A stretch of DNA of 64,000 bases from Neckera pumila. Its lineage: Eukaryota; Streptophyta; Bryopsida; Hypnales; Neckeraceae. Shown in pieces: positions 5,067-54,980 of the stretch. The notes beneath the pieces are model-generated. The model was not told the DNA's origin and did not search any database. It saw only the letters and a program-made list of their open reading frames with translations. A program made the translations under genes and the position numbers. Positions within the stretch are counted from its first letter, which is position 1, and every line of letters starts with the position of its first letter. The stretch lies in the NCBI GenBank assembly GCA_963969595.1, contig OZ018409.1, positions 28,161,282 to 28,225,281 on the forward strand, written 5' to 3'.

Positions 5067-5950
5067 CTCCTAAAGGCCCAAGACCTTTTTTTTTTGTCAA
5101 AAAACACTCAAAACTGCCATTTTTATAGCAAAGAGTAAAAAAATTGAAAAATGTTTTTCTTGCACATCTAACCGTAGGATCTTACACCTAATTAGTATGA
5201 GAATGTGTGGAAAAAATTTCAAAATTTTTGACCATAAGATATCTCTCTTTAAAGTGAAGAAAACAAGTTTTTTAGCACATTGTGGAACTAGATTTATGAC
5301 TTTGAACACTTTTAACTTAAATTTTTTACACTACAGAGTTTTGAGCTTTAAATCTTTTTAGTAGAGAATTGATTTGAGAGTTTAGGGAGAAAAAAAATTC
5401 AAAAAAACTTAATTTTCATACTTCAAAAATTGTTAAGTAGAAGTAGATATGAGACAGAAGGAAATCCTAAAATATTAATATCTTTTAGATGGAATTAAAG
5501 TGCACTAATCCCAATGGTGAGATTGCTCTGGCAAGCAAACTAAACCATGTACAACTTTTTCTTTTGAAAATTGCAAAAATTGCATTCCAAAATGAATCTT
5601 ACAAGTAAGTTTTTCAAAGAAGATGCTCTAATTGCCCAAAAAACAAGATTGTCCATAAATTTCTCATAAAAACCAATTGAAATGAATCAAAGCTTTCCAG
5701 ATATGACAAAAATATAATCTATAAGAAAAAAAATAAAAATAAAAAATAAAAAATCTTTGCAAATTTTTTTTGATGCCCCCTCTCCCCTGTTTTGAGCTTA
5801 TTTGGGCATAACTTTTGTTTCCAGGCACTGATTGAACAAAAATTATTCTCCCACGAAGCTTAGCAGTTTTCTATCTTCAAAAAATTTCAAAAAATCATGA
5901 CAGAAATTTAGCCCATAGGTACTTGCCCGAAAACAATGGGCCTTTAGGGG
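5067..5950 (-). mobile_element. TTAA-flanked piggyBac-like element, copy A (884 bp)
   Basis: Flanked by TTAA at 5063-5066 and 5951-5954. The termini are CTCCTAAAGGCCCAAG on the left and GGGCCTTTAGGGG on the right, inverted with one or two mismatches. The interior is AT-rich and non-coding, and matches copies B (26289-27182) and C (43374-44299) in inverted orientation, for example the shared GTGTGGAAAAAATTTCAAAA block and the GGTACCTACGGGCTGAAATTT-like block near one end. It is non-autonomous. The piggyBac assignment rests on TTAA duplication plus CCC-type termini and is an inference. Confidence 0.75.
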
Positions 5951-7140: not shown

Positions 7141-8595
7141 TCAAACCTGTTCTGGGAAAAATTGATTGTACAGATCCCGAAGGACACGACATATTTCTTG
7201 AAATGTTGGCCGAGCACGAGGTGACGAAGCCCAACAGCGTTTAATGAGGTGAAGCAACAACAAACAATCACGTTCTAAAGACCGAAAGTTGAAATCACGA
7301 TCTGGTCTCCACTGTGTTTCATCTTCATCAGGCTTCATAACACTGTCAACCTTGAATCCTCTAGGAAAGTTTTCGGATTGAACTCCAGTGACCACCTGGT
7401 ACGCCACAACTCCGAAGCTATAGACATCGATTTTGTAGAGGCATTCGGGCGGTTCTGATCCTTTAGATTTACGACACCTCCAAACTTCGGGTGCAGTGTA
7501 ATGTTTGGTGCCAATTCCGTAAGATAAGGGTTCCACTGTTGCACCAGATGAATCCACGCGTTGCCTGCAACCAAAATCAGCAACCTTCACGAGGTAGAAT
7601 TGAGCAACGGAAGGGGGCATCGCCATTTCACTCATGAGAAGATTCCCAGGTTTCAGATCTCCATGCACAAATCCCTCATGATGTAAATGTTTCACCGCCT
7701 CTGCAAATTGCAACAACACAACCAGCGTCTCTTGAAACGAAAATGGTGCGTTCCTGCCAGCCATACCTCTTTCGCATAGAAACCTTCGAAGATCGACCTC
7801 CAACCATTCTATGAACAAGTTGCAGTTGGATGACCCATCCGACCAACCAAAAAAATGAACGATGTTGGGATGCGAGACTTTCAAAGCAACGTCAAACTCA
7901 CACTTGAAGTTCTTGTTTTGATAAGGAATGTCACAGATAAACAGTTTCCTGGCGAAGGTGCCATGGCACCATAATATTTTGCAAATTTCTCCTTCGTTTC
8001 CCTTTGCTTCGGTATGATCATCCACCATCCTTACATCTGTCTCCTCCAAGTACCAGAATTTCACAAATTCCGCAGCAACCATATGATGTTTCAGTTGTTC
8101 CACAAGAGCGCAATTTGAACAACAGAGTCCAGGGAATATATTCACTTCCATCGTTTCTCCGAAACCACGGAGACGGTTACCCGGGAAGAATCCCAGACTA
8201 CATTGGTGTTTAGGGCAAGTGCCCTTGATGCCCTCAAACCATGTCAAGTAAGCTTGCTTTGGCATGACATTGCTGTGAATGCTGTGAACGGAAAAACCAA
8301 AGTCCGAGGAGTTGCACGTGATTACGGTCCTAAGCCACTACTCCTCAGATATGCACCTAAAAAAGTACTTGAATGGACAGGCAGACCGACAGTGAGACTT
8401 TATCGTTCTCCAAGATGGCTTTTCAGGGGCACCAAAGAATCGAGGAAGCAACCTTACGAACTGCGATGCATCGATGGAATCGAGTTCGGTAGAATCCACA
8501 ACTAAAATCGGGTCATTCTCTTCACCTCTCGACGGCCAAGTACATCCTGTCACGCGCGCAACCTTAAGATAGAATTTGGCCATTAGATTCCACAA
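7141..8595 (-). CDS. Protein kinase domain protein, two exons (kinase 1)
   Basis: CDS join on the minus strand: exon 1 8595-8357, exon 2 8281-7141, giving 459 residues. The 75-base intron (8356-8282) has GT and AG ends with a pyrimidine-rich acceptor tract; its length is a multiple of three and it holds an in-frame TAG, so unspliced reading would look like a nonsense mutation. The kinase C-lobe is clear: HGDLKPGNLL (about residue 286, HGD rather than HRD), DFG (about 315), APE (about 343), and an SFGVVAYQ helix. The N-lobe is divergent: no canonical glycine-rich loop, and the best candidate for the ATP-binding lysine lies in ARKLFI (about 192). The N-terminal 150 residues are Cys-rich and unrecognised. 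A second Met at codon 5 could be the start. It may be a weak kinase or a pseudokinase. It is divergent from kinase 2 at 19547. Confidence 0.8.
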
Positions 8596-9921: not shown

Positions 9922-10431
9922 TCAACGATGAATAGATAATGGAAGAGCCTTGGTAAAGAGATCAACAAGATTATCAGTTGATGAAACTTTCTTGATTTCA
10001 AGTGCTTTGTTAGTAATCAAGTTGTGTGTAAGACTAAAATACTTTGGATCAATATGTTTTGTTCGGTCACCCTTAACAAAACCTACTTGCATTTGTGCAA
10101 CACAAGCACTATTGTCTTTATATAAGACAATTGGAGAATTATCATGTGATAATCCACAATTTGTTTGAATAAAATTATCAATTGACCATAGCCAAATGCA
10201 TTCCCGAGATGCTTCATACAAAGCAATAATTTCTGCATGATTAGATGATGTTGCAGTAATTGTTTGCTTCATTGAATTCCAAGAAATTGCAGCTCCATGT
10301 CGTAAGAAAACATAACCTGTTTGAGATTTGGATGTTGCTGGATCAGATCTATATCCAGCATCAGCATATCCAACTAATTTTGGATCTGTAGATCGACTAT
10401 AATGTAGTCCCAAATCTTTAGTTTCTTTCAA
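9922..10431 (-). pseudogene. copia RNase H domain and Pol C-terminus
   Basis: An open segment of 169 codons in the same frame as the rest of pol. It has the copia RNase H hallmarks YADAGY (usually YADADWAG), SWNSMKQ, SSNHAEIIAL, DNSACV and HIDPKYF (usually HIDIRYHF), followed by the typical NLVDLFTKALP end of copia Pol. An in-frame TAA at about 10464 separates it from the reverse transcriptase, so no full-length Pol can be made. Confidence 0.9.
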
Positions 10432-10464
10432 GTAACAAAAAAGATATTTGACGCCATTCCAATG

Positions 10465-11283
10465 TTAGAGTATCAGTCTAGAACTATGTCTTGCAAGGAA
10501 ACTAACTGCAAATGCAATGTCAGGTCTTGTAGACGTAGCCAAATATAAGAGTGCTCCGACCGCTGCAATGTATGGATATTGTTCACTCAATGGTTCCTCC
10601 TCCTCCTCACAAGGGCGATAAGGATCATCATCTTTAGCACTACGATCAACCATATGTATAGATAGAGGAAAAGCATCAATTATGTTGAATCGTTTGAGAA
10701 TTCGGTTGATATAAGTGGTTTGAGAAAGAAAGATGTTGTTATCTTTCATGTGTAAAATCTGTAAACCAATGCAAAAAATAGTTTTGCCAAGTAATTTCAT
10801 CTCAAACTCACAAATAAACAATTGAGTAGCTGTAGCACATGCAGATTTGGTGTCCACAAGGTTCAAATCATCAACATAGACGGCGATAATAACAAATCCA
10901 TGTTTGTCTCTTTTGATAAAGAGACATGGAAGCAATGCATCATTTATAAAATGATGCTCAAGAAGAAATTGTCGCAGTCGCTGATACTACATAAGTCTAG
11001 ATTGTTTGAGACCATACAATGCACGTTGTAATTTAACGCCACGATATTTGTCTGAAGTAGATGAATGTGAGCTAGTGGTCTCAAGATCAGGAGGCACTTT
11101 CATATAAATATTAACATATAAAGAGCCATATAGATAGGCTATCACTACATCCATAAGATGCATATCAAGAATAGCATAAATTGCCATTCCAAGAAGATAC
11201 CGGAATGTAATCGAATCTATAACTGGAGAATATGTGATATCATAATCAATACCAAATTTTTGAGTAAAACTTTGAGCAACCAA
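10465..11283 (-). pseudogene. copia reverse transcriptase, interrupted
   Basis: Two open segments in one frame, 10987-11283 and 10465-10935, separated by an in-frame stop. The first holds LMDVVIAYLYG (family form QMDVKTAFLNG) and a KVPPDLE segment. The second holds the catalytic YVDD at 10867-10878 followed by the thumb region and a TRPDIAFAV block. The catalytic Asp pair is present, but stop codons and changes in the first conserved block make the domain inactive as encoded. Confidence 0.9.
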
Positions 11284-11445
11284 ACGGACTTTGTATCGAA
11301 TAATGTGTCTTTTGTCATTACGTTTGTGAATGAATACCAGCTTGTACCAAGAGGGCGAGCAGTGAGATTGTCTACAATAGGACCAAACACTTGTTTTTTT
11401 ATTTAAAGAAGTATATTCCTCCTCAATAGTAGCTTTCCACTTTGG

Positions 11446-11793
11446 TCAATTAGAGCGATGCATCGCTTCGTCAATTGTACGAGGTTCAAGATCATCTTTC
11501 TCGCAAGAAAAATTTTCTGCAATCATACAAATGAAGGAATCATTGATGTCCATATTTGCCCTATTCCATACATCTCCCGTACCGCAGTACATCACAGAAA
11601 ATTTTGTGTTCAACTTAGGTTTTTCTTGCTGTTGAACAAAAATATTGCCTTGAGATGTTGATGGACAGTCGTTTGCAAATGATTTTGTAAAATTAGCCGT
11701 ATTTGCTATAAGTGAAGAAGGATCAACAGTATGTGGAAAAAGTTTGCGTTTACGTGGCTGTTTATCCGGTTCGTGAGTTTGTTTGCCTGTCAA
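11446..11793 (-). pseudogene. copia Pol linker between integrase and reverse transcriptase
   Basis: An open segment of 115 codons in the pol frame, rich in Lys, Pro, Ser and Thr, at the position of the poorly conserved integrase C-terminal region in copia elements. A one-base frameshift near 11905 separates it from the integrase core: the reading resumes in another frame with a TPDGFYDATR-like segment. The region has no catalytic motif. Confidence 0.7.
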
Positions 11794-11898
11794 TTGAGGA
11801 GTTGAAGTTGTTGTAATATTTGGTACAATTATTCGGCAGGAAGATTATGAGCTTTATTCAACGGATTTCGAGTAATCCGTGTCGCATCATAAAACCCA

Positions 11899-13056
11899 TC
11901 AGGCGTTTGATTGGCAATCAGTTGATGGAGTAATGTAACGAATTATGCTTGGAGAGTCAAAGCCGATATAAATCCCTTCTTGTCGATGATTGTCAATAGT
12001 GTGGCGTTGAGGTTCCGGAATGGGAACCCATAAACAACAGCCAAATACTTGTAAATGGGATATATTGGGGACGCATCCCGAGAGCAATTCTTGTGAAGAA
12101 GCAATCTCCACAAAAGAAGGATGAAGGCGAATTAGATTTGCAGCATGTAAAATTGCATGTTCCCACATATATGAAGGCAATTTTGCATGAAGAAGCAATG
12201 GCCTCGTGATGAGTTGAATCTGTTTAATAAATGACTCCGCTAAGCCATTTTGAGCATGTTCATATGGAACAGAATATGTCAACTCAATTCCTGTGGCAGT
12301 GCAATAGTCTTCAAAAGATTTTGACCGAAATTCTTGAGCATTATCCATTCGTAATGTTTTGATTGGATAATCAGGAAAATGAGCTTTAAAACAGATAAAC
12401 ATAAAAAATAAATTAGCAAAAGCTAAATTTCGAGAAGATAATAAAGATACATGTGATTGTTTGTCCAATGCATCAATCAAAACCAAAAAATATTGGAATG
12501 GTCCAAACATAGGAGATATTGGACCACAAATATCACCTTGAAGTCTGGATAACATTGGTGGCAATTCATGAGAAAGGTTCCATGAAAATGGTCTGGCAAT
12601 TCACTTGCTTTGTATACATGCATGACAGATTGTCATAGAACTGACATCTGCTGGTTGCAAATTATGACCAACAACGCATGGAAGAATTTTGCGAAATAAA
12701 GTAAAATCTGGATGGTCCAATCTTCCATGCCAAAGAGAAGTTTTATTATCTTTAGAAGATATAGCAAAACTAGAAATAATATGTGGCCGGATTGGAATCC
12801 GGTATAAGCCATTTGCCGCAGCAAAGGCTGTTTCCACAATTTTATTCTTCTGTACAAAATCTAGAGCCTCTCGCCTACCTATAATTCTAGTCGAGAGGTG
12901 GAAACCGTTGGTGCGCACATCTCGATAGCTAATTAGGCTCCGAGGCGTAGAGGGGGAATATATGGCATGCGTGCATGTAATGGTGGTGCCCTCAGGCAAA
13001 GTCACTTTTGCTGGTCCCTCCTGGAAACGAAACACATTCAGTCCAGTCATGGTCAT
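11899..13056 (-). pseudogene. copia integrase, interrupted
   Basis: Two segments in one frame: 12601-13056 with the pre-integrase signature SLWHGRLDHP, and 11899-12564 with the integrase core. The core shows GDICGPI (first Asp), a conserved LRMDNAQEF with the second Asp, and HAQNGLAES, where the final catalytic Glu lies. The two segments are separated by an in-frame TGA at 12601-12603, possibly from a CGA codon. The zinc-binding part is incomplete. Confidence 0.9.
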
Positions 13057-13076
13057 TAAATTTCTGGTTTGCCAAT

Positions 13077-14192
13077 TTAATAAATTATTAACATCAAAAA
13101 TTGTTTATCTCGTAGAATTGAATGAGTAGTTGCAGAGTCAAGGAGCGCATCACAAGACTCACCAGTGGAGGTATCCTCAGCAACATAAATTTCTCTATCG
13201 TCATTGCCATATGGATTCATAGACGCATCCATGGTGTGGGCTTCCCGACCTTGGGCTCGAAGTTTTTTGTTTTCTTGAAACATTTTGACAAATTAGTCTA
13301 ATGTTCGGCATATATTTGCCAAATGTCCTACTCTGCCACATTTGTGACAACAACGCGTCTCTGATGGACGCTTACCACGATTATTATTAGAGAAAGTGGT
13401 ATTTTTCTTCTAGCCATGTTGATTGTCACGACTGTAATTACCGGTTTGTCTATGACGTGGTTTAAAGCGATGTTTTTGTGGTTTAGGTTTCATAGTAGAA
13501 ACCTTGACAACATGGGACTCTGGAACCATTGTTCCAAGAGGACGGGCCTCTGCATTTCGCAAGATGATCTCATTTTACTTTTCAGCAAGGAATAATAGAG
13601 ACATAAGATCTGAATGATTCTCAAATTTCATGTTTCTATACTGTTGGGCTAGTAAAGCAGAAACAGGTGGAAATGTTGAGAGGGTTTTCTCAATCATTTT
13701 AGATTTGGTTATAGTCTGACCACGTAACTGTAGTTGTGACACAATGCGGTACAACTCATTGTTGAAAGCAACAAATGTTGGAAAGTCCAACACTCGTAAG
13801 TGAGTCCAGTCATGTAATGCTCTAGGAAGAAAAATAGTCTTTTGGTGATCAAAACGGGATTTGAGCTTTTTTCAAAGCTCATTAGGTTTGTCTATTTCTA
13901 AATACTGATGTTGTAGTAAAGGAATAAGGTGGCGGCGAAGTAACAATAAAGTTTTCCAAGAAATAGCAGGAGAAATGGTATCACTTATAGTAGAATCTCC
14001 GTCAAATATAATACAGTCTGATAATTGCTCCGCATAAATGTGGGCTTTTGCAGTCTTGGCCCATAGAAGATAATTACTCCCATCAGCAGTCAACGGTGGA
14101 AATAGAAGTGGTTGAAGTCGTGGTGCCTCGGTAGCAATAGCGGAGACTGGAACAGTAGTAGATGTAGCAACGGAAGAAGTGGAAGTAGTCAT
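13077..14192 (-). pseudogene. copia gag and protease, interrupted
   Basis: The gag ATG is at 14192. The N-terminal region has a DGSNYLLWAKTAK motif typical of plant copia gag. Further open pieces lie at 13575-13793 and 13077-13283, all in one frame but separated by stops. A CCHC zinc knuckle, CHKCGRVGHLANIC, is encoded at 13308-13349. The protease active site appears as DSATTHSIL in the 13077-13283 piece (family form DSGATxH). Pol lies in a different frame, so a shift occurs between 13077 and 13056; it may be a fixed mutation or a programmed one. Confidence 0.85.
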
Positions 14193-15840: not shown

Positions 15841-16735
15841 AAGTCAGCAGACTTTGGTGCTCATTTTCACCTAGTATTTGAACTTTTTTCAAAAAACTTT
15901 GAACTGGAAAAAGTTGGCAAATGAAGTCAACTTTACCTCCAACAATCTGTTTGCAATTCCAAGAATCTGATCAAAAGTTATAATAAAAAAACTGAGAGGG
16001 TGTTCAACCATTTTTTTTTAAATGTCCAAATGCACCCCTCTCTGATTTTTGTCCATAACTTTTGATTGGAGGCTTGAAATCATAAACGGATTGTTGGACG
16101 TGAAAGTTGAATTGATTTAGCAACTTACTTTAGTTCTAAGTTTTTTGAAAAAAAGTCATCTTCTATGTTAAAATCGCCTCCAAAGTGTGCTGACTTTTGA
16201 AAATACCGAGTAGTGAATAGTTAATTTTCAAAAAGAAATACATAGTATAATTAGGAGTTCAAAAGCTTCTAAAGTTGCAAAAAGATTTAAGAAAAAAAAT
16301 ATTCTTAAAATTGCATGTATAGTTGAAGCATAGAAGTTGTTTTATTGATTTTTTTCATTTTTTCGAATGTTTTTAAAAGTCAGCAGACTTTGAAGGCGAT
16401 TTTGACATAGAAGATGACCTTTTTTCAAAAAACTTAGAACTAAAATGAGTTGCTAAATCAATTCAAATTTCACCTCCAACAATTAGTTTATGATTTCAAG
16501 CCTCCAATCAAAAGTTATAGACAAAAATCAGAGAGGGGTGCATTTGGACATTTAAAAAAGAAATGGTTGAACACCCTCTCAGGTTTTTTGTTGTAACTTT
16601 TGATCAGAGTCTTGGAATTGCAAACAGATTGTTGGAGGTGAAAGTTGACTTCATTTGCCAACTTTTTCCAGTTCAAAGTTTTTTGAAAAAAGTTCAAATA
16701 CTAGGTGAAAATCACCACCAAAGTCTGCTGACTTT
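15841..16735. repeat. 360-bp inverted repeat (foldback core)
   Basis: The arm at 15841-16198 is nearly identical, in inverted orientation, to 16375-16735; the spacer is about 176 bases. Each arm is itself a more diverged inverted repeat of two half-units containing AAGTCAGCAGACTTT, CACCTCCAACAAT and CAAAAGTTAT motifs, so the core is a four-part arrangement of one sequence. A transcript through it would form a long double-stranded hairpin. Confidence 0.9.
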
Positions 16736-17612: not shown

Positions 17613-19546
17613 AACGTACACAAGTGGCATGCCCTCTTAAGTTAAAATCATTTGAATATTGGCCTGTTGATAAGGTTTCCTTGCACAGGTGGAGGTGCCG
17701 ACCCTACAGTAACAGGAGGTAACCTGGACTCCTGCCGTGTTTTTTTCCCGTGCAGCAGATCACGCCGTTGAAATAGTACTTCAGACCCTAGCGTGTCATT
17801 TTGGACTCGTGAAGTAACGAGGCTTCTCATCTCTCTGTGAAACCTTGGCGATCTCGATCACCTGGCCTCTTCAAAGGTGGTGGCATTTGAAGTTGATTGT
17901 CGTGGATATTGAGACGATTTTTGGGAGTTTCTGAATTTCGAAATCCTGGCGGGTTTGCGTTACCAGATTTGTACTTTTCTCAGGACTCGTTTACGTTGGT
18001 GATTTTTGAAGCATGGTATCAAGGTATCCTGTGTGCTTAGATAGTGTTCTGCTTCTGTTTTTTTTGGAAACAGGCAAATTAACCTAGCAGATCTCATTTT
18101 TCATGCCAAGTTGAGTGGAGAGACGTGCTATTTCAGAACGCTACAGTTTGCTGATTGAGATGTTTACTTCATCACGCTCAAGCTTAGCCACCATACCCGC
18201 TTGCATCGAGGAGTTTAGGGCTTAGGGTGATGAAGCAAACTTGAGTCAAGTAACTTCGGTCTGTCCTTCTATGCACTCGCGTATGCTGAATTGTTGATAG
18301 GGTTGCGATCTCAGATTTTCTTAGACTACATCTGTCGGAGGATAGATTTCAACGTGTAGAAATTTGTTTGAAGGCTGAGTCTTTCGACATCCATAGAGGT
18401 CTTGGGAAAGTATGTCCAAACTTTACGGAGTAATGTTTTGTTATTTTTGTCCTGCAGAAGTATGATTACCTTTAGGGGCGACCAGGTCAGGGCCCGAATG
18501 ACTCTGGTATTTTGGACCGGGAGCTAAGAGCAATTCGTGTTTGGAAGGTGTCAAATGGTCATCTCTCCTTCAAGCAAGAATGTCGTCGGAAGGTGTACAA
18601 GTGGTCCTCTCTCCTTCAACAAGCAACGAAACAAGGTAACGCATACCAAATGCAAAGTTATTCTTGATTATTCAACCCTTCATCATCCATCAAAAGTCTT
18701 TGCGTTTTTTCTCATTTTTGAACGTCATTTTTTCCTATTTGATGTCAAGTTTTATGAAAATTAATTTTTGAAATCAAAGTGAAGCCAAAAATGTAACTTT
18801 CTCCCCAATGGAGTAAATCATTGAATTTTTCTTTTGATTTGAAGGAGGTCATCAAAAATTGTTCAATTGAAAAAGAAAATTGAATATTTAGATGGCAAAG
18901 GTTTGTTGACTTCTTCTACAATTTAAATTCAAAACACTCATGCGTCACTTGATATTGGTCAATTTTACTTGATTAATGTAGTTTTAAACTTGATTTGTTG
19001 TGGTCATGAAACTAGAGATAAGTATGGATGTCTATATCTTTTCAAATTTGATTTTTGACCCCAAATGCTCCTAGAGGTCATAGTGGATGGTTAGGGGTTA
19101 TTGTTAATCAATTATTTTCAAGTTAATGTTGACATGATAGTTGGGAGTGAACAGAATAGATAATGTCAAGGATACTAACATCTCACTAAGTCATCACTAT
19201 TTTTTTTACGACAATATTAAATCATTACGGGAACTGCATGAATCTGATGTATATGAACTTAACATTAATTAATCTAAGGGTTTAATCAATCTAGTGGGGG
19301 TGTTCCTTGTGTGATGCAGGGCTCGGATGTTTAAAACTTGCTCTTTGCCCTTACAGATCCCTTAGTCCCGCACCCAATATTGATTTTGGAGGGATGCATT
19401 TTGGGGGGGGAGTCCTCCAAGGCAGCTCTGTATGTGTCACGACATGTTTTGATTTTGAGGTAGATTTTGAATGTGGTGATAAATTTTGACCATGGTGCTC
19501 CGTTTGTGATTCGTGCAGTAGTGAAAGGAGTGTGACCGGTGGGATT
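17613..19546 (+). other. Upstream region and probable 5' UTR intron of kinase 2
   Basis: The stretch has no coding ORF. A plausible donor, ACAAG|GTAACG at 18635/18636, and acceptor, CGTGCAG at 19518, would define a leader intron of about 880 bases ending 28 bases before the kinase 2 ATG. A second candidate acceptor, GATGCAG, lies near 19320. The intron is an inference. The promoter must lie in the part left of 18635 or further upstream, beyond the retroelement. Confidence 0.45.
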
Positions 19547-21085
19547 ATGGGCCTGGAGACCTATAAAGGGTGGCCCGTCAACATTTGTCCTCCGAAGTGG
19601 AAGGACAACCAGTTATGGATCAACAGTGAGGATTTTGAAGCCGCCCAGTACACCGCCGATGCCGTGTTCCACTTCATTGGGCGTCCCCCCGTCTACTTCC
19701 CTGACATCAAGTTCGACTACCTTCCTCTGCTCCTTAGCACTGGGGAGCGTCTCACGACGAGGGAGGAGTGCTCAGCGTATGTGGCCAAGATTGCCAAGGG
19801 CCTTGCACTACTTGACCGGCGAAAGGAATTCAAGTTCCGGGTCCAAAATCTCATCCTCGAAATGGTCAAGAGACCCGAAGTTGTCCGGTTTCTCAGTACC
19901 GTGCGTGCAAGTCGTCGTCAAGCGTGGCAAGGAGGGTCTTTGAATCCGGAGAGACGGAGGTTAGATTCAAAGATTTTACCAAGTGTGCGCCGTTTAGGAA
20001 AAGGCTTGTCAGGGTTTCTATACGAGACAACATGGGAGGGAAAGAAGTATGTCAGGAAAGATTTTCCCCTTGGATCAGTGCATCACAATGTTTTTGAAAA
20101 AGAAGCAAATGCTTTACTTGATCTTGACCATCCAAATATAGTAAGGTGCCCTCATTATGCAGTAGGAAAGGGTAGCTGTTCTCTTCTCCTGGAGTATGTG
20201 GATGACGATCTTCAGAATATTATACAAAAGAAGATAGAGGCGCAAGGAAAAGGGAACCGAACTGGTTCTAGTACCACTCTTCACTCAAGACTCTTGGACA
20301 TAGATGAGACCAGAAGCTTAATGTCAAGTATGGCCAAGCAAAGGGAGATCACCGGAGCTGATGTAGGTCTTATGAAAATGCCCGAGAATGAACCTACTGC
20401 TCCTTTTGAAGTGCCTGAGGCGGTGGACATCATATCTGAGATTGCGACCGGCATAAAGTACTTGCATGATAATGGGATCGTCCATGGAGATTTGAAACCA
20501 CAGAATGTATTAATTGGCAATGGTGGGATCGTAAAGCTGGTTGATTTCGGTCTCGTTGAAACCAAGAAGAGGGTCAAATTGGTTTCGAAACGCACGCGGC
20601 ACTTTGAGATCCTCATGTGGAAAGCACCAGAACGATTTGAGAAATTACTCGGTCCTGTAACTGAGGATTCAGATGACCCCTTCACAGATTCGGATACAGA
20701 TGAAGATGAAGAAATTCAAAGCTCTGTCATTTTTACAATGAGCAGATTGGCCATGGCTGATGTCTACAGCTTTGGTTTAGTATGTTCACAAATCTTAGGT
20801 GGGAAGCTAATGTATTCAAATTTGAGCTTGACCCAGTTACGAGAGCAAAGGATGCATGGTTTTAGACCGCGACTGCCTTCTTCTTGTCCCGACTTTCTCC
20901 AATTCCTAATATCTTCAAGCATGGAATGTGATCCCTGGCGCAGACCTATCTTTGCTGACATCTGCACAGTTTTGAAAGCTTTTCAGTCAAATCGACTACC
21001 ACGTCTAATGGAAGGTACAATATTAGGACTGTTTTTTGGCTTTAAATTTTCAGAGCGTCGTCCTGTGATTAAAAAATTGGGGTGA
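19547..21085 (+). CDS. Protein kinase domain protein, single coding exon (kinase 2)
   Basis: An intact 512-residue ORF starting at ATG 19547; the frame is open a few codons further but only from GTG. Residues 1-140 are an unrecognised N-terminal region. The kinase domain follows: glycine loop GKGLSG (151-156), ATP-binding Lys171 in YVRKDF, catalytic HGDLKPQNVL (313, HGD for HRD), DFG (333-335), APE (360-362) and the VYSFGLV helix. There is an insertion of about 55 residues before the E helix (230-288) and a very acidic insertion after the APE motif (372-389). The N-lobe is canonical, so an active kinase is likely. A GGTACAATATT site after codon 489 could be a donor, so the last 22 residues are uncertain. 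It is divergent from kinase 1. Confidence 0.85.
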   Translation: MGLETYKGWPVNICPPKWKDNQLWINSEDFEAAQYTADAVFHFIGRPPVYFPDIKFDYLPLLLSTGERLTTREECSAYVAKIAKGLALLDRRKEFKFRVQNLILEMVKRPEVVRFLSTVRASRRQAWQGGSLNPERRRLDSKILPSVRRLGKGLSGFLYETTWEGKKYVRKDFPLGSVHHNVFEKEANALLDLDHPNIVRCPHYAVGKGSCSLLLEYVDDDLQNIIQKKIEAQGKGNRTGSSTTLHSRLLDIDETRSLMSSMAKQREITGADVGLMKMPENEPTAPFEVPEAVDIISEIATGIKYLHDNGIVHGDLKPQNVLIGNGGIVKLVDFGLVETKKRVKLVSKRTRHFEILMWKAPERFEKLLGPVTEDSDDPFTDSDTDEDEEIQSSVIFTMSRLAMADVYSFGLVCSQILGGKLMYSNLSLTQLREQRMHGFRPRLPSSCPDFLQFLISSSMECDPWRRPIFADICTVLKAFQSNRLPRLMEGTILGLFFGFKFSERRPVIKKLG

Positions 21086-25854: not shown

Positions 25855-26090
25855 CCCTTAAACGTCAAGGCAGATGTTTTGTGGCTAATGAGTGACAAGG
25901 AATCTCTTGTGTAGGACAAAAGTGCAACTATTCATCTTTGGAATTTTGTTGTAAAAAGAGGAGGTCTTCTACAGTACTTTGACTTCCAGTCCCAACTTCC
26001 AATGAGTACTTTTGCTATTTCTTAAGCCTTATGATTTACATGGTAATGAAAAGGGATGATTTTTAGGATCACCTCTTCGTCCTTTAAGGA
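25855..26090. mobile_element. TTAA-flanked short element, copy F (236 bp)
   Basis: TTAA at 25851-25854 and 26091-26094. Ends are CCCTTAAACGTCAAGG and, reverse-complemented, TCCTTAAAGGACGAAG. The interior (AATCTCTTGTGTAGGACA, GTGCAACTATTCATCTTTGG) also occurs in element G at 51949-52146, so these two form a short subfamily. Element B begins only about 200 bases to the right. Confidence 0.65.
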
Positions 26091-26288
26091 TTAAAGGGCC
26101 CACAATTTGTAACTCTAATGATTTTTTAATAACTCAAAATGGGGTAAAAAGTAGATTAGAAAGTTGCATCTTGTACATTATTTTGAAAGCAATTCAATCA
26201 GTGACTATTTGATTGACTTTGAAAAATTCCCTTGGACTTGCAATGAAGAATCTTGTCACTTTGCCTTTGCTCATCTTGAACCATTTAA

Positions 26289-27182
26289 CCCCTAAAGGAC
26301 TGTTGTCCATTCGGGGGACAAATGCATTTTTGGGTAGGTACCTACGGGCTGAAATTTTGTTGTGATTTTTTGAAACTTTTTGTAAACGTGAAGAATTGAG
26401 AGAGGTATATGGCAGAAAATAAAAAATTGAAATTGGACCTTTGAGCAAGAAGTTATGCCATTTCTTAGAGTGTGTGGGGACGGAGGGCAGCAAAAAAAAT
26501 TTGCAAAATTTTGAATTTAAATTTTTTATTTTTTTTTCTCATAAATTATATTTTTGTCTATTTGGAAAGCTTTGATTCATTTCATTTGAATTTGTTATGA
26601 AGAAGTTATGGACATTCTTGTTTTTCGGGCAGTTAGAGCATCTTTTTGAAAAAAATAACTTGTAGGATTCATTTCGGAATGCAATTTTTGTAATTTTTCA
26701 GTTTTTTTTTCTTGTAATGGTTTAGTTTACTTGCTGGAAAAATCTCACAATTGGGATCAGTGCATTTTAATTCCATCTAAAATATATGAATATTTTAGAT
26801 TTCCTTCTATCTTGTACCTATTTCTACTTAACAGTTTTTTTGAATTTTTTTTTCCTAGACTCTCAACTCAATTCTCCACTATAAAGATTTAAAGCTCAAA
26901 ATGCTGTAGTGCAAAATTTTTAAGTTAAAAGTGTTTAAAGTCAAAAAATCTGGTCCCGCAGTGTGCTGAAAAACTTGCTTTTTCCACTTTAAGCATAGAT
27001 ATCTTGCAATTTGTGAGATCAAAAATTCTGAAATTTTTTCCACACTCTCTCATAATATTTAGGTGTAAGATCCTACGGTTAGATGTGAAAAAAAAAAAAT
27101 TTTAATTTTTTTTTACTTTTTGCTATAGAAATGGCAATTTTGAGTGTTTTTTGGCAGGAAAAAGGCCTCGGTCCTTTAGGGG
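26289..27182 (+). mobile_element. TTAA-flanked piggyBac-like element, copy B (894 bp)
   Basis: TTAA at 26285-26288 and 27183-27186. Ends are CCCCTAAAGGACTG and GTCCTTTAGGGG, inverted. Just inside the left end is the CCTACGGGCTGAAATTTTG block shared with copy C. Near the right end are AGGTGTAAGATCCTACGG and the GTGTTTTTTGGCA block shared with A and C. The interior is AT-rich and non-coding. This is the cleanest full-length member. Confidence 0.8.
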
Positions 27183-29160
27183 TTAATTTCTGCCACATAA
27201 TGAGATAAGAGAATATATTTGAGCTTGTAAAAGGTGAGGGAGATCAAAGCTATCAAACTCCTTTAGGTAATAAGGTAATTGCTTCTAATTGTGACTGTAG
27301 ATTCCAAGAATGCCTCCTATAGATTCCTATTCAGAAAGTCAATTTGGATACATCTATTTTTTAGTAGTTTGAAAATGGAAAGTGAGAGAATCTAGAATCC
27401 CCTTTGACTATCCACTGAAAAGATAGGAACATCCTTGGTCAATTAATTAGCCCCCCCCCCCCCCTCCCCCAAAAAATTAGTAGCCACTGATCATTTTTGA
27501 AAAACAAAAACAAAACACCCTTCCCTGCCGTTGATCTTGATACGGACAGCATATATTTATATATGATATGTATACATATATAGTATGTATATGGATAGAT
27601 TATATACATATTGATATACAGTATGTAAACAGATATACAATATATAAACGGATATACAATATGTAAACTGATATATGGTATGTATATGGGTACAGAAAAT
27701 CGATACAGAAACCATTTAATCCATATTGTTGGTCAAACAAATTCATTTTGAAAAATACGAGATTGTAGGGGGATATTGGGATTTTCTGATTATTTTCAGA
27801 TCAATTTATTTTTTAGGCCCCCCCTCACACAAAAAATAAAATGAATTAGAGGGGTTCATAAAAAATTGTTTGATCTGAAACTTTTGGGTGGAGTGTATCA
27901 CTATCCACCCAAAAGACAGCCACTATCCAACAAGATCAAGATCCAACAAAATATTTACAATTGAAGAATAAGAATAATACTTAAATCCTTGTTTTGATAA
28001 TTTTAGATGTTATCTTAACCCTTGAGAGAACCATCATCTACAAAGAGGATTAGAAATGTTTTTCAAGAGCTTAGTGTAAGCTGCACAAAATGGAAGAAGT
28101 ACATCCAAGTATTCTTTTGTGACTAGATTTGCTCACATGGTATTTCATATTTTCGTACGTTTTAAATCAATCCATGAGAGATGGCAAGAAAAGAATAATT
28201 TGCAAAAATGAAGATCTTTGTGTGTAGAATTTATTTTGCCAAAGAAACTCCAAATCTAAATCGCCCCTCCTATGGCTCTCTTACAAGTTAAGGACCTTCT
28301 AAAGATTCTTCAAGAATACTATAAAATTCTTGAGTTGAACATTGCAAGATCTTCCTTCATTGAAAATCATGCAAAGAGTTTGTCAATAAAACCTTCTAAC
28401 TAATTGATTCTTCTAATCAGACCATTCTACAACATCCATAGCAACAACATTAGGACAAAGTAGGTTGAAAAATTTGGTGGAAAATGTCTGCATTCTTTTC
28501 AATTTTGAGAAACTCCAAGCAATTTAAATGGTTGGCATAAATGAAAAGTTTATACACCTAAGTTCTTACAGTTGGCTCCAAAGAGAAAGAATGAGTGATT
28601 CTCAAAGTTTTGTCATAAATCAATTGTGCAATTATTGTGCAAACTATTATTACAAAGAGTTTGTTACAAATTAACCTACATTTATGAACCTTAAATCTTC
28701 AAAAGTAAAGAAATTGCAATGATTTTGCAACCTGGATTATAACTATAACCAACACTTTTCTAATCCCACTGCCTCAAAGATTGAATGACCAAAAAATTTG
28801 ATCAAACTATTAGTGAAGTTGGAGAAATATACAAGCCAATGTTCAGTTTACAAGATTTAAAGTTGATGTGAATGCAATTGGTTTGTGAATTTTCATAGCC
28901 TGTGTGAAGAAACTAAAAAATTTCAAAGTGGAGATCATAGGAACACCTACTATTGACAACTCTTCATCTTCCATTGATTATTTATAAAAATGAGTGTTTC
29001 ACTTAAAGGAAAGGATTTGTAGAAACTAGTCCAGCTTTGAAAACCACTACTGTACTGTAGTTTACCTGTCTCCGAAGGGGCGGTGTATATGCCTACCTTA
29101 TATAGTATCTGCTTGGGACACAGTATTTTCAAACCCACATTACTTGCAACATTTGGAACC

Positions 29161-30877: not shown

Positions 30878-33800
30878 ATGGAGTTGGACTTGCAGTCTAG
30901 CCAGCAGTTCCTGGCCAAACTGCGTCTGAAGCGCAACACTGACGCCTCCCCCATCCGCTCCGGCCCCGCGGAGGAGGCGTGGAGTGCCGAGGACACGGGT
31001 GGCGGTCGCAGCACGGACTCCCCTGTCTGGCGCCGTGTCTCCATGGCCACGCAGCGGGCGCAGCAGCCCAACGGGAAGAACATCGTGCAGAAGACTCGAC
31101 AGATCGAGTGGGTGATCCATTTACAGAAAGTGGCGCACGGACTCATGACCAAGCTCCACAAGTTGCACCAGATCCTTGGACCGCCCGAGCTCGGGTCGCA
31201 GCATTACCCGGAGGTCTTCTGGAAGACGGGGATCTTTCCGGATATGCCTAAGCTCTGTCTTCATGTGGCGCGCAAGTTTCCTGAGCATCCGGCCAAAATG
31301 CAGCTCGACAAGGTGGGTGCCACATCGTGTTACTGCCTTCCTTCCTCCTTTCCTACAATCTGGGTTTGTTATGCTAGCTGTGTTGTTTGGGTTCTTCTTT
31401 GCATTTTAGGTTATGATATTTAGGTCTTCGAGCTGAATCCACTTTGAGAGAGTGGGAAGGGAAAGACTCCATTGACAGTACTGTACATTAGAGGCTCCAT
31501 TAACCATACAGTACATTATAGGCTCCATTGACCATAGAGGTGAGCTTGGAATTGTGCTGATTGTGAAATTACTGGCTCTATTAAACTTGTTTTTTTACAA
31601 TTGTTTTGTAGGGTTAACCCTTTAAGGACTGGTCGACCACTTTGTGGTCGATTTTTTGACTTTTTGTCTCCTACTATTCATAGAACATCTGATTTCAAAA
31701 AACTTAAGAGAAGAATGCAATTAGAGGGTGTCTTCATACACTCCTAACATAGCCAATTCCAAGAGAATGCATGCAAAATTGAGTGAGTTGTGCTTGTTTA
31801 AACTTGAAATGGCCTAACCTTTCATATTGGAGTTTTCAAAGAAAAATACATATTTTATGTAAAAGACAACTATATATATGTGTGAAGGAATTAGCCAAAA
31901 GGTTTTTGGTCAATTTTCAAACCATATACTCAAATTTATGTCCAATTGTAGCAAACCTTAATTAGAACTAGTGCCAAAGGGTGTTTATGACACATCAATC
32001 TTCAAAGAATAATTACAAGGATGTGAAGCATTGGATCACTTTCATTTTTTGTTTGCTTCAAGGATCTAACCCATAGAACCAATTTATACAATCTGATCTA
32101 GAATTACATCTTTGAAGAGGGCATGAAACAACACTTTTTCATAAATGTCTGCAAAAACTACGCCCGCCCCCAAATCGACCACAGTCCTTAAAGGGTTAAC
32201 ACAAAAGAGATGTGCGAAATTTTAGATGGTGCAGGTTTCTAGAGTATTGGGGAGAAAGGTCAAAGTTCACCTGTATGGTGAATGGAGACCTTTACCTTAC
32301 TCCCTCCATCTCGCAATAAGTGTTCAAATTGGACCTGATGTTGTTTCGAGTTGTTTTGAGTCGTCATACGGAGGCTTTTCTCTATTCAACTTTATTTAGG
32401 TTGCAATGAATGCATTGGATGTTCTTTCTGATTTTGGTGATATAAAATTTGGACACTTTAAATTTATGCTTTTCACAATATGATCAATGAATTTAGTATC
32501 TAATGTTTTCAACAACACTGAGGACACTTATTGTGGGACGGAGGGAGCAGAAAAGAAGACCCTAGTGTATTCATAATGAGACCCTTTTTGCATGCATTTT
32601 TTTATTAGTCCCTAAGTGGGATAGCCTTCATTGGTTAGCTGTCGTTCTGGCCTAATGACAGACTCTACTTGCTCTGCTCGGAAGAGTGTGTGCTTTATGA
32701 GGGTTCTTTAGATTATTAACTAGTCCCTGCCTACTTTTATTTGCGTTGATTTTTGTTGTCGTTTCTTCAGGTTGACAAAGCTGGAGTTGACTTACTACAT
32801 GAGCATGCTGGACGATATGTAGCGACGCTGGAGCCTTGGATCATGGTATGTGTCCTGCTGAAGGGTTCTGAATCGTATAATGCCACGTAAAACAGCTGTT
32901 TCGCTTTTGAGAACAAGCTCTTTTAGTACTCCCAATGTTGTCGGTAGATTCGCACTCCACTTTTGGATTCCATGGTCGACTTGATTGAGTTTACCTGAAT
33001 TTCAGCCGAGTTTATGGATTTCTACAGGTTCTTGAAGATCTCATGACGTTTCGAGAACAATCACTTCGTGTAATACTGGACTTGAGTAGTACAGTCGTCA
33101 CCTTGCTGGTGAGCCCATTACTCTTGGTCAATGTAGGAGGATTCCTACATCAATATTGAGCTTCTAATGCGATGTTTAGTGTATTGCCGAGCCAGCATAG
33201 AGGCTATCAGTTGTCGAATGCATTGATCATTTTGTAATCTCGTAGCTTCCCTGTTTTAGTGCTCAAGAAATTAGAGGCAATTTCTTGAGGAGGAGGCTTC
33301 AGAGTTCCTCTTTCAATGTGCCCCAATGCGATATTCCTTCAAGTATGTACGTGCGAGTGGGATGTAATGCTGTTTTTACTGTTCTTTGGTATTTTCTGCA
33401 GCCAAATCAAAATCCTCTCCTTCTGCGAGTATTCATGGAACTCTTTTGCTGTTTTGTTCGGGTCAATCTTCTAGCTGATAAGGTACTTCTATTTGCTTCC
33501 CCTGTGGCTATTTATGTTTGGTCATACCAGAGTTGCCTGCGTTTCAGGTTACAAATGTTGTGTGAAAACTTGCGTGACCAATATTGTGATCGTATACAGG
33601 TACCGAGGAAGATGCTTCTTCAGATGTACAATCTTGTGCATACAATGATGAAAAGCGGAAGAGACTATGGTGCTTACCATCGGTAAGACGGCAATCTACT
33701 TGCTTGTGATAATTTATTAAGTTCTTATCATTTGAAACCACGGACCTTGTATTTACAATGCTACAAAATGTGTCATACGCCGATCAACCCTAATCCTTAG

Positions 33801-41981: not shown

Positions 41982-42536
41982 CCCGTGAAGGACCGAGGTA
42001 CATTTGGGCAGAAATTGTCAAAAACTGCCACTTTTTAGGGAGTGAGAAGAAAATGAAAAAAAAAAGTTTCTTGAAAACTCAACTGTACAAATTTGTAGTG
42101 CATTACTATGGGAATGTGTGGAAAAAATTTCAAAAGTTTTGACCACATAGATCAGAAGATTGTAATGTTTGAAGTTAGAATTTAGTTCCAACCTTGCCTG
42201 ACAAGGTCAATAGACTTGAACTCCTTTTAGAGTGAGGTTTTTGTACTACACATGGTTATTTTTTTTACACTTGTATCCTATATCATGTTCATTATATATT
42301 TGCCAAATTTCAAAAGTAAAAGAGGAATTTTTGAATATGTTGCCTAAGTTCCAAAATTTAAAGATAGTATAACTTTTGATCCAAGCATCTAATCAAGGAA
42401 AAAAATACATTCTTTTGAAAGGATACACATTCAAACTTGGTATTAAAATTTCATAAAAACACAACCAAGATTGACTTCATGCACAATTACTAGAGATTTA
42501 TTGTGTACATTGAATGTTCACTTGGTCTTTTAGGGG
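41982..42536. mobile_element. TTAA-flanked element, copy E (555 bp)
   Basis: TTAA at 41978-41981 and 42537-42540. Ends are CCCGTGAAGGACCGAG and, inverted, CCCCTAAAAGACCAAG. The left part contains TGGGAATGTGTGGAAAAAATTTC, shared with the long copies A, B and C, so E looks like a shortened or rearranged member of that subfamily. Confidence 0.7.
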
Positions 42537-43373: not shown

Positions 43374-44299
43374 CCCCTAAAGGCCCAAGTGTCTGTTCAA
43401 CGGACAAGTGGGATTTTGGGCAGGTACCTACGGGCTGAAATTTTGTCCTGATTTTTTGAAACTTTTTTAGAAGATAGAAAAACTGATAAGCTTTGTGGGA
43501 GTATAATTTTTTTTTCAATCGGTGCCTAGAGAAAAAAGTTATGCCCAAATAAGCTCAAAACAGGGGAGAGCGGGCAGCCAAAAAATTCTGCAAAAAATAA
43601 TTTTTTTTTTTTTTGAGTTTTTTTTCCCATAGATTATATTTTTGTCTATCTGGAAAGCTTTGATTCATTTCATTTGGATTTGTTATGAGAAAGTTATGGA
43701 CATTCTTGTTTTTCGGGCAGTTAGAGCATCTTTTTGAAAAAAAAACTTGTAGGACTCATTTTTTAATGCAATTTCTCAATTTTTTTGAATTTTTTTTTTT
43801 GGCATGGTTTAGTTTGCTTGCTAGAATAATCACACCATTGGGATTAGTGCATTTTAATTCCATCTAAAATATATGAATATTTTAGATTTTCCTTCTATCT
43901 TGTACCTAATTCTACTTAACAATTTTTTTAATAATGAAAATTAAGTTTTTTTGAATATTTTCTTTTTCCCCTAGATCTTCAACTCAATTTTCTATTATAA
44001 AGACTTAAAGCTCAAAACTCTGTAGTGCAAAAATTTTAAGCTAAAAATGTTCAAAGTCAAAAAACCCAATCCCACAATGTGCTGAAAATCTTGTTCTTTT
44101 CACTTTAAATGTAGATATCTTGCAATCTATGTGGTCAAAAATTCTGAAATTTTTTCCACACATTCTTATACTAGTTAGGTGTAAGATCCTACGATTAGAT
44201 GTGCAAAAAAAACATTTTTAATTTTTTCTTCACTCTTTGCTAAAAAATGGCAATTTTCAGTGTTTTTTGACAAAAAAAAAGGCCTTGGGCCTTTAGGGG
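43374..44299 (+). mobile_element. TTAA-type piggyBac-like element, copy C (926 bp)
   Basis: Flanks are TTAT (43370-43373, probably mutated) and TTAA (44300-44303). Ends are CCCCTAAAGGCCCAAG and CTTGGGCCTTTAGGGG, perfect 16-bp inverted repeats. The interior matches copy B in the same orientation over its whole length by eye, for example GGTACCTACGGGCTGAAATT and GGAAAGCTTTGATTCATTTC. No ORF. Confidence 0.8.
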
Positions 44300-51948: not shown

Positions 51949-52146
51949 CCCATAAATGATGTTGCAACCATTTTCTGGTTGATGAATGATAAAGAATCCT
52001 TGTGTGTAGGATAGAAATGCAACTATTCATCTTTAGAATTTTATGTGGAAAGGGGAGATCACAAACAATAGTTTTCAAAGTGGATGATATCATACAGTGC
52101 TAAAAGGGGTGATTTCCAAGGTCATACCTAGCTTGGCGTTCAAGGA
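51949..52146. mobile_element. TTAA-flanked short element, copy G (198 bp)
   Basis: TTAA at 51945-51948 and 52147-52150. Ends are CCCATAAATGATG and, inverted, TCCTTGAACGCC, an imperfect pair. The interior matches element F (AATCCTTGTGTGTAGGATA, TGCAACTATTCATCTTTAG). Confidence 0.6.
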
Positions 52147-52972: not shown

Positions 52973-54980
52973 AAATCTGATGTGGCACTGATGTGGAACC
53001 AGTAGTGCCATGTCAGCACCAAACTTTTTTAAAGTAAAAAGTAATTTTTTATTTCTATTCTTTCCCTAATTGCACCTTGGAAGTACAAAACACGCGGCCC
53101 CTTCGAGGATTGAAACTTTTCCTAATGATTTGCACTTATATGTGTGGTGGTCAACAAATAGGCTATTCCTAATTAGGTTAGTGTCGGTTTGGCACAATCA
53201 GGGGTAGGGTTGGTTTAGGATTTTAGGTTGTTTAATATGCTCAATAGTTTCTTTTGACTATTTTGGTGTTTTTACCTTATGAAATATTTTCATTCACTTA
53301 ATCCTTCACTCCTCAACCATCTAGTCAATGTAATATTATGGTGCTTAATTTAGACTTTATGAAGTGAACATTGATAGCACTCCATATTTTTAACAAATGA
53401 GAAAGTGTATTTAACATAAATGTTGATTTTTTCAAATTGTTTGGTAGAAAAATGAAATCATTAAGATTCACTAAAGTGTAAAGTACAAAGTAAACTCATC
53501 AAATAGAAAATGTATGCCTTGTTCTATAGAATTACATTGCTACTAACTACAATCAATGGTAGAAGTGCACTCCTTGTTTCTATAGAAAGTTATTCATTAG
53601 ATACTTCTACCCGCTTAATCCTTGGATGGTACAAGATGAATTTTGGGTCTAAACAATCAAGAAAATAGCCTAAAAATGTTCACACTTGTCTAGGTTATCA
53701 CATTTGCATGCATCTCCTATAAGCACAACAAATTTTGAAATCCACAATAAATAAGGAATTTTAGAAATCTTTATGCTTGTCAAACTCTTTGTTATGCATT
53801 TGCAAAAAATTATCAAAATATAATAAGACATGCCCATCATTCCAAGCATCCAAAGACCTAACAAAATGATTTGAAGCTTACAGCCCTGGAAGGACAAAGC
53901 CTACAATTATGCAATCTATTCTAATTTTTATTGCTTTGTTTCCTCTATTTTGTAACTAATTTTGAATAAGAATTATTTATTTTACTTTTCAAAGATGAAA
54001 TCACATGTCTTCTAAAAGTAGTGAAATTTTCAAGTTTATTCGTGATGATTGTGATTTTTTTGAAGAAAAAATGAAAAAAATCATATAATACAGAGCATTA
54101 GCTAAAAGGATCTAACATTTTCATTATAAGTGAGTATTACAACGAAGAATATTTCAATGTAGCTCAATTTTCTATATCATTCTACAAACAGAAATTAAGT
54201 AGACCATGGAAATATACCCAATGTTCAAATTCTAATAAAACATTCACTTTTTTGGAATTTTTGGAATTTTCAAACTGGAGTAAAAAAAACTACACTTGAT
54301 TCTCTTCATTTCATTAGTTTGAATCCAATTCAAAAAAGATCATTTTCATGGGTGAAATTCAGATCGAGGAAGGAGCCACAAGTTATAAACTACACTACAA
54401 GACATCCATGACACAATCCAAATTCATACAAAAATATGCACTCATGACGACATTTTTCAGCACATAACAAGTGGAAAGAACAATAGAAGCACACACAAAA
54501 ATTGGATGAAAAAAAATTAATTTGTGTCCTCTTGCAAGCTTCCATTGTCATCCAAAAGCCAAGATCTGGCTCCTTAAGGCGTTCCAGGGTTAAACAGAAC
54601 AAGAGACGATTGTGCTATCAAGCATTCCCACCGGGCACTAACGGCTCTTCATTTTATTGAAAAAGATCTTTGACAACATGCAATTGCATGTTCGTATGCC
54701 CAGGAAAAACCAAGTTGTGAAACAATAATGGGTTACTCCAGATCAAATGACGTAAAAGGGGATTGTAGGCGACAAAAGGGAAAGAATCAATGCCTTACCT
54801 TCATTACCGCCTAAACTGATGTATACGAATCCAGTACATGAATTGAGCTTGTGAACATCTAGGGGGACGGTCACGTTTCTGTTTTGTGTACTCTAGAGGG
54901 GGTTGGGTTCTACACCTTGAGTGACAGGGTTCAATATATAATCTAAAGAAGCACGCTCAATTGGATCGTCAAAAGCTTTT

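Follow-up and report, generated by a model that had tools for sequence, protein, structure and literature searches.

The seven short elements found in the window (the whole stretch of moss DNA analyzed here, 64,000 bases) are very probably non-autonomous piggyBac transposons (MITEs), four of them (A, B, C, and E1) related at their ends to transposase-coding elements of the same genome. Overall, the evidence supports real piggyBac transposons and MITEs in a land plant, with very high copy number and recent movement. This kind of transposon is already known; the surprise is the host, the copy numbers, and the diversity. An earlier note on this DNA had inferred that an active source of piggyBac type existed in this lineage, and that inference is supported by coding relatives with matching ends.

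All seven elements were recovered at every coordinate pair the note had given, with TTAA at 13 of the 14 flanks, TTAT at the remaining one, and the CCC, CTC, or TCC ends it had described. Element A (26289..27182, plus strand, 894 bp) lies between target-site tetramers at 26285..26288 (left) and 27183..27186 (right), both read as TTAA from the window sequence. Two further MITEs, element B (43374..44299, plus strand, 926 bp; TTAT on the left and TTAA on the right) and element E1 (5067..5950, minus strand, 884 bp; TTAA twice), belong to the family of A, the three being end-to-end copies with 77 to 84% identity over approximately 890 bp. Element C (41982..42536, minus strand, 555 bp) has approximately 280 bp of one end in common with A, B, and E1 (62 to 65% identity), and approximately 300 bp of one end is homologous to the ends of coding elements. 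TTAA was present at both flanks of element D (31618..32195), a 578-bp MITE with ends CCCTTTAAGGACTG and no relative elsewhere in the 64-kb window, and likewise of the MITE S1 (25855..26090, 236 bp) and its relative S2 (51949..52146, 198 bp), which form a second family with 105 bp in common at 76% identity. Combined, the seven elements occupy 4,271 of the 64,000 bases. The terminal inverted repeats of piggyBac start with CCY, and the inverted ends of the window elements, CCCCTAAAGG, CCCTTTAAGG, and CCCTTAAACG, are of this type; the ends that depart from it are CTCC (E1, left) and TCC (S1 and S2, right). No significant transposase-coding match was found in the window when an insect piggyBac profile was run against all six frames (best E value 1.3), and the best tblastn hit had an E value of 0.01.

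Single TTAACCC-like ends with two to three mismatches were also seen at 54589 (-), 60065 (-), 44534 (+), and 6318 (+), possibly decayed members. An inverted repeat at 16018-16555, also flanked by TTAA, was examined as a possible further member and rejected: its arms run on past TTAA on both sides, so TTAA is not its duplication. This long inverted repeat, judged long-armed by eye, is probably a different, foldback-type element. Elsewhere, the window encodes a cytochrome c of plant type, closest among solved structures to chain 1ccr (rice), a Nck-associated protein 1, and an Asp/Glu racemase, as well as protein kinases at 7141-8337 and 19490-21085. Among named proteins, those closest to the latter kinase, the only window gene covered by the search for named relatives, were from the moss Ceratodon purpureus (at most 59% identity), with unnamed metagenomic proteins reaching 63%. 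These genes mark the host as a land plant and most likely as a moss of a genus other than Ceratodon. Translations read by eye suggested a Copia-type retrotransposon on the minus strand at 9922-13104, split into several open frames.

To set the elements against chance, we scanned the window blind for pairs of TTAA sites whose inverted bases matched at 12 or more of 14 positions, using 100 dinucleotide shuffles as background. Seven pairs were found, compared with a shuffle mean of 0.11 and maximum of 2. Three of the seven were listed elements (E1, A, and D), one joined the left end of A to the right end of D, and three were unrelated; B, C, S1, and S2 fail the scan because of the TTAT flank or imperfect ends. 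Genome-wide counts were made on the 339.5-Mb assembly (18 contigs, the window lying on one of 47 Mb). Allowing at most one mismatch, TTAACCCCTAAAGGNCC, the end type of A, B, and E1, occurred 37,388 times versus 5 for its reversed control. This corresponds to approximately 7 ends per 64 kb, and 7 were counted in the window, which is thus typical of the genome in this respect. D-type ends numbered 1,554 (control, 26) and S-type ends 2,835 (control, 117), with several pairs approximately 230 bp apart among the S-type matches listed. In a search that was not selected on TTAA, the 16-base end motif CCCCTAAAGGACCAAG had 2,929 exact copies genome-wide, and TTAA stood directly before 2,531 (86%) of them; in the 64-kb window TTAA begins at 343 positions, or approximately 0.5%. 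Pairing of ends in the retrieved loci gave 36 short elements, 15 of which measure 918 to 926 bp. TTAA occurred on both sides of 33 of the 36, a share that proves little since these elements were picked by TTAA-type ends. Among the retrieved loci, the closest relatives of B and D were copies in L047 (94.6% identity) and L051 (94.1%), respectively.

Long TTAA-bounded relatives carrying a piggyBac DDD transposase, which the note had proposed searching for, were found in this genome. A search of the assembly for the piggyBac transposase family PF13843 returned 872 candidates. The 116 that were scored all exceeded the cut-off, and 35 of them were stop-free within the match, as counted from the table with frameshifts disregarded. 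Copies were spread over contigs C1 to C11, and none were found in 14 control genomes of unspecified make-up. Regions of 9 kb were then taken around the first 20 of the 116 matches, and element limits were placed at the TTAA nearest (0 to approximately 20 bases) to the end of homology between copies; with limits set in this way, all 11 coding copies tabulated had TTAA flanks on both sides. Limits were rough for L013 and L020, and L012, L014, L018, L022, L023, L024, and L028 were left without confident limits. Three coding families were resolved, one of 5.6 kb (L009-L011, 98.6 to 99.1% identity), one of 5.4 kb (L015, L016, L019, and L025, 98.5 to 98.9%), and one of 7.2 to 7.3 kb, in which L021 and L027 are 99.4% identical and L017 is approximately 96% identical to both. 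Such near-identical copies (99.4% over 7.3 kb) point to recent movement. In L009 and L021 the start of the transposase frame was not clear, and copies differed in the residues preceding the common stretch, suggesting a spliced first exon.

The transposases themselves were compared across eight diverse copies, 34 to 73% identical to the first. The catalytic DDD triad (D161, D250, and D368) was invariant in all eight and aligned with that of P0121, an insect piggyBac protein listed in the database under the moth Macdunnoughia and 100% identical to the Trichoplusia ni (T. ni) query over residues 260-500; identity between L028 and P0121 was 23%. A C-terminal cysteine-rich C..C pattern aligned with the P0121 tail in seven of nine moss copies, the pieces used for L024 and L014 ending short of it. 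The predicted structure, of moderate confidence (mean pLDDT 69), gave as its best solved Foldseek matches the piggyBac strand-transfer complex 6x67 (E value 6e-21) and piggyBat 9c0f (1.1e-20), with TM-scores of approximately 0.53 to 0.62; the next match after piggyBac structures was Tn5 (4e-5).

A tree was built from 36 proteins, comprising 8 from moss, 8 from insects, and 20 of the 120 metagenomic matches listed, with no fungal, algal, or oomycete piggyBac knowingly included. In it, the moss copies were mixed with metagenomic proteins on several branches, and a long branch separated the insect proteins. The moss label required 6 changes, a number as low in 67 of 500 shuffles, although such counts mean little because the metagenomic proteins may themselves come from mosses. 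Given transposases that are 34 to 73% identical and lie on several branches, the superfamily has probably been long resident. When the T. ni transposase core was used as a protein query, the named species seen among the best 120 of 859 matches were all insects, with many rows unnamed. The moss alignment returned, as the best 120 of 146 matches, solely jgi, lgn, or ena entries and none from ncbi, uniref, or nr. Annotated proteomes often mask transposons, and a listing of 120 of 146 matches therefore does not imply absence from named plants. Viral contigs, scanned for the MITE-end pattern and searched with the T. ni transposase, yielded nothing.

The window elements were tied to these coding elements through their ends. 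Alignment indicates that the ends of A, B, E1, and C are homologous to those of the 5.6-kb and 7.2- to 7.3-kb elements, which encode a piggyBac transposase that has the DDD residues and a cysteine-rich tail. Both ends of A aligned with both ends of L009-L011 and of L017, L021, and L027: its left 204 bases were 65% identical to the left end of L009 and its right 183 bases 70% identical to the right end, while the two ends matched L021 in swapped orientation. A subterminal hairpin, TTGTCC..GGGACAA, occurred both at A's left end and at the corresponding end of the coding elements. Both ends of B likewise aligned to coding-element ends, E1 matched strongly at one end and weakly at the other (E values 6e-5 to 5e-4), and C matched the right end of L009-L011 at 62% identity (E value approximately 1e-17), its opposite end being weak (3e-4). 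Since both ends of A align with two coding families, internal deletion best explains A, B, and E1, and these three and C would be either piggyBac elements shortened in this way or close relatives of such elements. For D, S1, and S2, the putative assignment to piggyBac comes from TTAA, end motif, and genome-wide counts.

Empty sites offered a view of insertion itself. The note had suggested looking in sister accessions for empty sites with a single TTAA, and at paralogous sites this expectation held in 31 of 54 alignments, not all of them independent sites, while the other 23 differed. Eleven coding elements were tried, seven of which gave the 54 junction-spanning alignments. The clean cases were L009 (TTAA in 7 of 10), L010 (9 of 24), and L025 (7 of 9), together 23 of 43; L015, L019, and L026 were weak cases because their flank starts with the end of another element. 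Alignments without TTAA showed diverged tetramers, both L017 cases reading CAAA. The L010 coding element is nested in an A-family MITE, and L010-free copies continue through the junction. Element B is one such paralogous empty site, with one TTAA (43928..43931) matching the L010 insertion site and no gap nearby; of the other A-family copies in the window, E1 reads G-AA at this site and A has a deletion. As judged by alignment of these copies, a repeat interrupted by the coding element carries TTAA on each side of the insertion, and uninterrupted copies of that repeat have one.

Abutting elements with one common TTAA were observed at L013 (both sides), L015 and L019 (left), L026 (right), and L025 (near 7090). 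Abutting copies may reflect insertion at the ends of existing copies. As proof of a target preference they were set aside, the count covering few loci, with 7 of 120 ends flagged in the retrieved loci, two of these being chance by eye and one junction being counted twice.

Several other origins were weighed against piggyBac. Kolobok or Sola3 elements would also target TTAA, in which case the piggyBac genes of this genome would be unrelated to the window elements, a reading we consider very unlikely. Sola3 combines a TTAA duplication with a Sola transposase. For Kolobok, TTAA duplications are likewise described in excerpts of two papers (PMC9587614, PMC6004289), the former giving its termini as 5'-RR, whereas the window ends are CC, CT, or TC. 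PF13843 is carried by coding elements that have these ends and this hairpin, and for A, B, C, and E1 this end homology to piggyBac coding elements rules out a Kolobok or Sola3 identity.

The usual MITEs of plants are of Tc1/mariner type (TA duplication, end ACCCC) or PIF/Harbinger type (3-bp duplication), and TTAA includes both TA and TTA/TAA. Tc1/mariner duplicates TA with no further target constraint, yet the base outside TA was constant in all 14 flanks (left, T; right, A), a constraint that TA targeting would not require. PIF/Harbinger generates the 3-bp direct duplication TWA; with TTAA on the left and TTAA on the right, a 3-bp direct duplication is impossible, as TTA and TAA are no direct repeats. 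Coding relatives of piggyBac type rule out both, and we regard an origin from either as extremely unlikely. The frequency of TTAA itself (the 343 sites of the window) lends something to the idea that the elements are chance inverted repeats; alternatively, they could be artefacts of assembly or of contamination with animal piggyBac DNA. Against these readings stand thousands of ends genome-wide versus 5 in the control, elements nested inside each other, transposase copies on contigs C1 to C11, and a long branch between the moss and insect transposases. The genome-wide end counts rule them out, and their probability is negligible.

With piggyBac as the preferred identity, a mechanism can be proposed. 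Transposase from coding copies would bind the common ends and hairpin and would excise the element at TTAA via the piggyBac hairpin pathway, after which the excised element would be joined to another TTAA; the MITEs would be mobilized in trans by the transposase of coding copies. On balance, we lean toward a broader view in which the moss harbors a native, long-resident piggyBac fauna with several transposase lineages, still or very recently active and among the main DNA-transposon forces in its genome. These would form a plant-side branch without named proteins, and new insertions may favor TTAA at copy ends.

The note had held that piggyBac is not a common class in land plants. In the portions of the literature consulted, its rarity stands, piggyBac being described as only occasional in plants, e.g., in red algae (PMC12732532), but absence would be too strong a claim given 1,230 'PiggyBac' annotations in a fern genome (PMC6890710). 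Within the excerpted text, PMC10794571 names PiggyBac among plant superfamilies and elsewhere considers it as a tool, PMC5505980 notes that piggyBac still awaited testing in the moss Physcomitrella, and in both this and a second Physcomitrella paper (PMC5253467) it figures only as a tool derived from insects or in a reference. A moss genome paper (PMC10619864) was discarded as a piggyBac report, the term match in its excerpt being the word 'piggybacking'. No report of native piggyBac in moss was found in open-access titles and abstract starts, subscription journals and supplementary tables lying outside this scope. A land plant that combines thousands of copies with stop-free frames and near-identical insertions would be a source of a plant-adapted piggyBac and would allow a test of how the superfamily entered and persisted in land plants. 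Repeat annotations of mosses and ferns, which may list MITEs of this sort as unknown, would deserve a second look, and the coding partner makes an end-motif observation an assayable mechanism.

Among known systems, Kolobok and the T2-MITE of Xenopus have the TTAA target site in common with the window elements but differ in their 5'-RR termini (AGG...) and their transposase, according to excerpts of PMC6004289 and PMC9587614. PiggyBac is listed among insect MITE superfamilies in iMITEdb, as given in part of its description (PMC5199201), and animal piggyBac MITEs are likewise short and non-coding, with piggyBac-type ends and TTAA flanks; here, in contrast, the host is a plant and 15 of 36 paired short elements fall at 918 to 926 bp. 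The closest likeness is to the piggyBac superfamily itself, including T. ni piggyBac (6x67) and piggyBat (9c0f), in TTAA duplication, short CCC-type inverted ends, the PF13843 DDD transposase, the cysteine-rich tail, and the fold. In the excerpt of PMC12732532, beetle piggyBac ends (CCCT/CCCTTT) resemble those of element D, whereas beetle elements measure 2.07 to 3.47 kb compared with 5.4 to 7.3 kb for the bounded full copies in moss. Unlike the animal hosts of the solved piggyBac and piggyBat, the host here is a land plant.
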